In this document: positions 35,361-36,427 of the stretch, piece after piece | Numbering within the stretch: position 1 is the stretch's first letter | How the letters are laid out: the number at the start of each line of letters is the position of its first letter | DNA from: an uncultured Woeseiaceae bacterium | Lineage (GTDB): Bacteria > Pseudomonadota > Gammaproteobacteria > Steroidobacterales > Woeseiaceae | Direction of reading: 5' to 3' | Length of the DNA stretch: 40,134 bases | NCBI GenBank assembly: GCA_947258485.1 | Contig: CAMYIS010000263.1 | Coordinates: 1-40,134 of the forward strand | Notes under the pieces: generated by a model | What the model was told of the DNA's origin: nothing | Databases searched by the model: none | The model's input: only the letters and a program-made list of their open reading frames with translations | Translations under genes and position numbers: made by a program

Positions 35361-35431
35361 GATTCAGGTGGTTCGTGCGGCACTGATCATGCAATAAAGC
35401 ATAACCTATCCGAGCGACTGAATATCCGTGT

Positions 35432-35698
35432 CTATTTGCTTCGGTAAATGTCTTTGCGATCCCCGATCTTTATGACGTGCACGATCAACACCGTATCCTC
35501 GATCGTGTAGAGAATGCGATAGCGGCCCTGGCGGAGTCGGTAGCGTTCGAGGCCTGACAGTTTCAGCGCGCCCGGCGGCCGCGGATTGTCAGCCAGTGAC
35601 TGGATACGTTTAACAATTCGGCGTCGATCTGCCTTCGTAGCGATCGACTGAAGTTCTTTGCGAGCAGATTTCTTTATTCGCAGACTATATTTTGCCAC
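35432..35698 (-). CDS. Type II toxin, RelE/ParE family
   Basis: SLRIKKSARKELQSIATKADRRRIVKRIQSLADNPRPPGALKLSGLERYRLRQGRYRILYTIEDTVLIVHVIKIGDRKDIYR. Confidence 0.93.
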   Translation of the reverse strand: MAKYSLRIKKSARKELQSIATKADRRRIVKRIQSLADNPRPPGALKLSGLERYRLRQGRYRILYTIEDTVLIVHVIKIGDRKDIYRSK

Positions 35699-35921
35699 GT
35701 CGTTTCAGGTCCTTAACGACGTCCTCGAAAGCATAGTCTGGCTCCGTTTCGCGAACCTCAAAAGCCTCGATGTCACTGGCATCCTCTGCAAGTGCGGCTT
35801 TGACGGCCTCATTGACGAGTTCCGAAATACTGCGATCCGTCGCTGCGGCTTTGAGCCGCAGCGCACGATGCAGAACCGGTTCAAAGTAGACGGTGGCTCT
35901 CTTCTGGGCCGTTTCACTCAT
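35685..35921 (-). CDS. Ribbon-helix-helix antitoxin
   Basis: KRATVYFEPVLHRALRLKAAATDRSISELVNEAVKAALAED; overlaps the toxin start by 14 nt. Confidence 0.88.
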   Translation of the reverse strand: MSETAQKRATVYFEPVLHRALRLKAAATDRSISELVNEAVKAALAEDASDIEAFEVRETEPDYAFEDVVKDLKRRGKI

Positions 35922-35927
35922 GGCAAA

Positions 35928-35962
35928 AGCATAACGTTGTAACGTTTTGACGTCAAGACGTT
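35928..35962 (-). promoter_or_regulatory. Antitoxin promoter with overlapping operator array
   Basis: Minus strand TTGACG-N17-TATGCT (35956-35951 / 35933-35928). ACGT cores start at 35934, 35942, 35950 and 35958 (8-bp period). 22-bp inverted repeat at 35941-35962 with 20/22 symmetric positions. Confidence 0.75.
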
Positions 35963-36046
35963 CGAAAATTAGAAGCAGTTTCAGGATCGGCGGTCAATAC
36001 CTGCCGGACTTGCCGGTGCCAGTCTCCGTGTGATGAACTGCCAGCG

Positions 36047-36427
36047 GTGGATACCGGAATCAGATTTTTTTGGCTGCTGGCGGGCTTGACGTCGGTCGGC
36101 ATAGGCGCCGCCGGTGTGGTAGTGCCATTGTTGCCGACGACGCCGTTCCTGCTGATCGCTGCCTTCGCGTTCGCGCGTTCTTCGACGCGGCTGAATCGCT
36201 GGTTGCGAGAGCACCGCTCCTTCGGGCCGTTGATCGACAACTGGCACCGCGACGGCAGCATTGACCGCAAAGCGAAACGGATCGCGATCATTGTTCTGTT
36301 GATGACACCGGTGATCACCTGGTTGTTCGGTGTACCGCTATGGATCATTGCGAGTCAGATTGTGGTCTTGGGCGCTGTGGCTGTATTTATCCTGACCCGC
36401 CCCCTGCCGTCCGAAGGCCATCGCTAG
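36047..36427 (+). CDS. DUF454 (YbaN) family membrane protein
   Basis: GVVVPLLPTTPFLLIAAFAFARSSTRLNRWLREHRSFGPLIDNWHRDGSI is typical of DUF454. GTG start. Confidence 0.9.
   Translation: MDTGIRFFWLLAGLTSVGIGAAGVVVPLLPTTPFLLIAAFAFARSSTRLNRWLREHRSFGPLIDNWHRDGSIDRKAKRIAIIVLLMTPVITWLFGVPLWIIASQIVVLGAVAVFILTRPLPSEGHR

Follow-up and report, generated by a model that had tools for sequence, protein, structure and literature searches.

Here, we describe a tandem array of four ACGT-centred 8-bp boxes (octads) directly upstream of a predicted toxin-antitoxin operon in a 40,134-nt contig of an uncultured Woeseiaceae bacterium (CAMYIS010000263.1, assembly GCA_947258485.1; hereafter the window). Judged from the sequence, the array is real and conserved, and its most likely role is that of operator and promoter in autoregulation of the operon. 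The fuller reading, to which we assign a probability of roughly 0.8, is that the octads would be bound by the antitoxin and that, in the window's class of loci, the antitoxin mRNA would be leaderless. The comparative evidence shows that the octad array is conserved, that it is locked to the promoter and that two leader classes exist. Features of the locus are given in Table 1.

Table 1. Features of the toxin-antitoxin locus, with window coordinates
Feature	Position	Strand	Basis
Octad box 1, ACGTCTTG	35954..35961	-	Direct reading; family octad PWM
Octad box 2, ACGTCAAA	35946..35953	-	Direct reading; octad model
Octad box 3, ACGTTACA	35938..35945	-	Direct reading; octad model
Octad box 4, ACGTTATG, holding first part of -10 element	35930..35937	-	Direct reading; octad model; promoter register
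-35 element TTGACG, made of box 1 end and box 2 start	35951..35956	-	Consensus scan; register
-10 element TATGCT, begins at box 4 position 5; 17-bp spacer	35928..35933	-	Consensus scan; same register in 84/91 loci
Predicted transcription start (leaderless mRNA), on the A of the ATG or no more than ~1 nt away	35921..35921	-	Inferred: 6 nt after -10, geometry conserved
Possible alternative upstream promoter, TTGACC-18-TCTAAT	35968..35997	-	Promoter scan; flank not conserved
RHH antitoxin, 78 aa, PF20605 Antitox_RHH	35685..35921	-	ORF; Pfam; PDB profile; structure match
RelE/ParE-superfamily toxin, 88 aa, GTG start, 14-nt overlap with antitoxin	35432..35698	-	ORF; Pfam; RelE structure matches

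The operon and its octad array

The two genes are adjacent and overlapping and the antitoxin has a DNA-binding domain, as in type II systems, and the pair is a predicted type II toxin-antitoxin operon with a RelE/ParE-superfamily toxin and an RHH antitoxin. The antitoxin scores above the PF20605 cut-off (Pfam), and a PDB profile search matched it to RHH proteins. Single-sequence folding was poor, and an alignment-based model (mean pLDDT 90) was used instead; it matches mainly RHH proteins (ParG, CopASO, CopG, Arc and AtaR), with every E-value above 0.1, so that it is the concordance of the three methods that supports the RHH fold. The toxin matches ParE_toxin at 1.1e-10 (Pfam) and also RelE structures. 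Within its family R54, R61, R81 and Y85 are nearly invariant, aligning with or near the active-site region of RelE, and this pattern speaks for an mRNA interferase rather than a gyrase poison. Homologues were not found in plasmids, viral contigs or phages at the sensitivity used, and there is thus no sign of a mobile carrier; PF20605 is absent from the 14 well-known genomes searched.

As stated in a preliminary description of this DNA, the ACGT cores start at 35934, 35942, 35950 and 35958, exactly 8 bp apart, and the imperfect palindrome at 35941-35962 is symmetric at 20 of 22 positions on direct reading. The description's phrase "helical phasing" is dropped here, as 8 bp is about 0.76 of a turn, not same-face stacking; it is the spacing of MetJ met boxes. 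The window holds 155 copies of ACGT; by chance, a row of four at 8-bp spacing would arise 9e-6 times in the window and 7e-4 times in a genome of 3.03 Mb. Elsewhere in the 3.03-Mb draft genome there is neither a second run of three ACGT at 8-bp spacing nor a degenerate octad triplet, leaving the window array as the sole one; the strict form of the degenerate octad pattern is too narrow, failing on the window's own box 3 (TACA).

The promoter TTGACG-17-TATGCT, previously proposed on the minus strand, is the sole promoter-like site in a consensus scan of 35400-36200, and the proposed lack of a Shine-Dalgarno sequence ahead of the antitoxin ATG (35921) was borne out. The -10 element, matching TATAAT at 4 of 6 positions, is separated from this ATG by six nt (TTTGCC), with no in-frame start upstream. 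On the plus strand, a neighbouring gene (36047-36427) that resembles a small membrane protein starts about 85 bp past the array, and the same consensus scan yielded no plus-strand promoter.

Conservation of the array, promoter register and leader classes

Homologous loci were obtained from a class-wide search and a genome collection (discovery set) and from a phylum search with a profile (held-out set; exceptions are L074, which duplicates L011, and L095, which is too short). Tandem 8-bp boxes with the consensus ACGTTATA (equivalently TGACGTTA) lie directly upstream of nearly all antitoxin homologues examined, in more than ten phyla; the 8-bp spacing, whose fate in related loci had been set beforehand as part of the refutation test, is conserved across phyla in about 90 homologous loci. 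With the octad model, 65 of the 66 discovery loci score over the 99% null and 63 over the null maximum, scores computed on the PWM's own fitting set, with which the held-out set (arrays in 24 of 25 loci) and shuffle refits agree. Most arrays hold three to five boxes by this model. Autocorrelation over the 75 nt preceding the antitoxin gives identities of 0.381 at lag 8 and 0.342 at lag 16; distal and coding controls give about 0.26. De novo motif fitting from random starts yields TGACGTTA at 8.5 bits per octad, compared to 2.1-2.2 for shuffled and 1.9 for distal sequence, and period 8 outperforms periods 5-7 and 9-12. Pairwise identity among promoter-aligned loci is 0.61 within the array and 0.25, the chance level, in the 34 bp just upstream; the repeats are therefore maintained by selection, and do not reflect shared flanks. 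At one locus (L042, upstream of position 202), the array reads as a 44-bp palindrome that is all but perfect (42 of 44 positions, by eye), with its centre between boxes.

In 84 of 91 loci, the best -10 element in the array (17-bp spacer) begins at position 5 of an octad. The -35 element, exactly 17 bp off, is usually TTGAC(G), and it starts with TTGA in 69 of 91 loci. Operator and promoter thus form a single unit composed of the repeats. Array position is constant relative to the promoter, variable relative to the start codon, and upstream of the predicted transcription start, so that the array would act as DNA and not as RNA.

Distances from the -10 element to the start codon fall into two classes, with 6-7 nt in 30 loci, none at 8-11 nt, and at least 12 nt (mostly 18-33 nt, with a Shine-Dalgarno sequence) in 61 loci. 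The short class, which includes the window (6 nt), has no real Shine-Dalgarno sequence, the short AGGT scored as such in L033, L037 and L007 being discounted because it overlaps the -10 element. This discontinuity supports a leaderless antitoxin mRNA, which appears to be the simplest reading of the short class (about one third of loci, including the window). One member, L054, carries a perfect TTGACA-17-TATAAT 7 nt ahead of its ATG, and another, L048, shares the window's arrangement of TTGACG-17-TATGCT and 6 nt, ahead of a GTG. L034 and L048 are the short-leader loci with a GTG start in place of ATG, which is unusual for a leaderless message. A RelE-like toxin is found downstream in 28 of the 30 short-leader loci, and the class includes Pseudomonadota, Acidobacteriota, Gemmatimonadota, Chloroflexota, Myxococcota, Latescibacterota and WOR-3 (organism names from MAG records, which are possibly misbinned). 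On the antitoxin tree the leader-class label changes 6 times, compared to 25 in shuffles; the number of switches is uncertain, given poor resolution of the tree (78 columns) and ambiguous leader class for L004, L005 and L050.

Proposed mechanism and alternative explanations

Residues R8, T10 and Y12, on the predicted DNA-reading strand, are invariant in the antitoxin alignments used. We propose that each RHH antitoxin dimer would read one ACGT-centred 8-bp box through this strand (R8-x-T10-x-Y12), and that dimers would pack side by side along the tandem boxes in the manner of MetJ on met boxes, with the toxin probably serving as co-repressor. The boxes would make up both the -35 (TTGACG) and -10 elements, the 17-bp spacer being three octads minus 7, and because the boxes themselves form these elements, an occupied array would exclude RNA polymerase directly. 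Within the window's class, transcription would begin with the A of the initiation codon, and the antitoxin would accordingly be translated from a leaderless mRNA. The antitoxin as binder, co-repression by the toxin, the exact transcription start and leaderless translation are the parts of this scheme that we infer.

A separate clade of antitoxins has Q8 in place of R8 (family f207: L086, L089-L094 and L096-L098), and C occupies position 2 in about 45% of its boxes, whereas the groups with R8 have C there in 92% and 80%; as one clade represents one event and the scan itself favours C, this difference is suggestive only. No RelE-like toxin was found within 150 nt downstream in the Q8 clade, octad arrays richer in ATGT are present in nearly all members (none in L086), and these are possibly solitary autoregulatory RHH proteins.

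That the octads are the operator of an mRNA with a leader lacking a Shine-Dalgarno sequence, starting at TTGACC-18-TCTAAT or elsewhere, is an unlikely alternative to the leaderless start. An unrestricted promoter scan does pick this upstream site (score 10.7 vs 10.5 for the in-array promoter), which would yield a leader of about 39 nt, but the flank around it is no more alike between loci than expected by chance, whereas the in-array promoter lies 6-7 nt from the start codon in 30 loci, including the perfect consensus of L054. With a much lower probability, the array could be a true MetJ operator or the target of another ACGT-binding regulator instead of the antitoxin: with the published met-box matrix, on which the consensus reaches 12.6, three of the window boxes obtain 5.4-8.5, but the array, single in the genome, accompanies the antitoxin gene across phyla, and the boxes are altered in the antitoxin's Q8 clade. 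MetJ itself was rejected as regulator, as PF01340 is not matched in the genome while the E. coli control was positive. A chance repeat, or a functionless inherited relic, is scarcely credible; we found no support for it, and it is refuted by the comparative data, with an array conserved beside a randomised flank; the low expectation per genome given above also speaks against it.

It is doubtful whether the leaderless arrangement favoured here is also adaptive, letting the antitoxin recover selectively while a RelE-like toxin blocks ordinary translation initiation. If it were, a message without leader or Shine-Dalgarno sequence would still be translated by 70S ribosomes, fusion of operator and promoter would give fast derepression, and the leadered class would be without such an advantage, making the family a natural comparison. 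More broadly, conservation in more than ten phyla predicts a complete operator code for a widespread toxin-antitoxin family, with a MetJ-style operator outside MetJ and a promoter composed of the repeats themselves. One regulated operon type in leaderless and leadered versions also constitutes a natural pair for testing what a leaderless antitoxin mRNA does.

Comparison with known systems

No description of an octad operator in toxin-antitoxin operons was found in the literature searched, the coverage of which lay mostly outside subscription papers. The omega repressor of omega-epsilon-zeta is likewise an RHH repressor that controls a toxin-antitoxin operon through tandem short repeats (PMC4803016, PMC3920265), but has 7-bp NATCACN repeats, a separate regulator protein and another toxin; an omega heptad operator was rejected for the window family, the period of which is 8 and not 7. 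E. coli RelB-RelE also combines an RHH antitoxin with a RelE toxin and is autoregulated from an operator overlapping the -10 element, but its operator consists of two 12-bp inverted repeats (PMC3920265), unlike the octads of the window, and the window antitoxin is only weakly like RelB models. In Mycobacterium tuberculosis, leaderless transcripts account for 32 of the 37 toxin-antitoxin pairs that have a primary transcription start (PMC3898074); this is another phylum, in which a quarter of genes are leaderless, and the tie to an octad operator is a feature of the window family.

Among the closest parallels is MetJ, whose dimers occupy one 8-bp box apiece and require at least two boxes side by side (PMC3228920). 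Like a MetJ-type operator, the window has at least two contiguous 8-bp ACGT-core boxes over or near a promoter, the met box AGACGTCT being likewise palindromic and ACGT-centred. The proteins share the RHH family fold and, by eye, K/R-x-T on the reading strand, and one dimer per tandem box is our proposal for the window. The antitoxin octad PWM, used without modification on the E. coli metJ-metB intergenic region, has its best match on an 8-bp-periodic run there, at 9.3 bits, below the scores of the toxin-antitoxin loci. The window antitoxin differs in falling outside PF01340, in its toxin partner, in its length of 78 aa without an S-adenosylmethionine domain, and in its box consensus (TGACGTTA/ACGTTATA vs AGACGTCT). 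Together, the grammar shared with met boxes and a genome without MetJ point to a MetJ-like operator and not a MetJ system.
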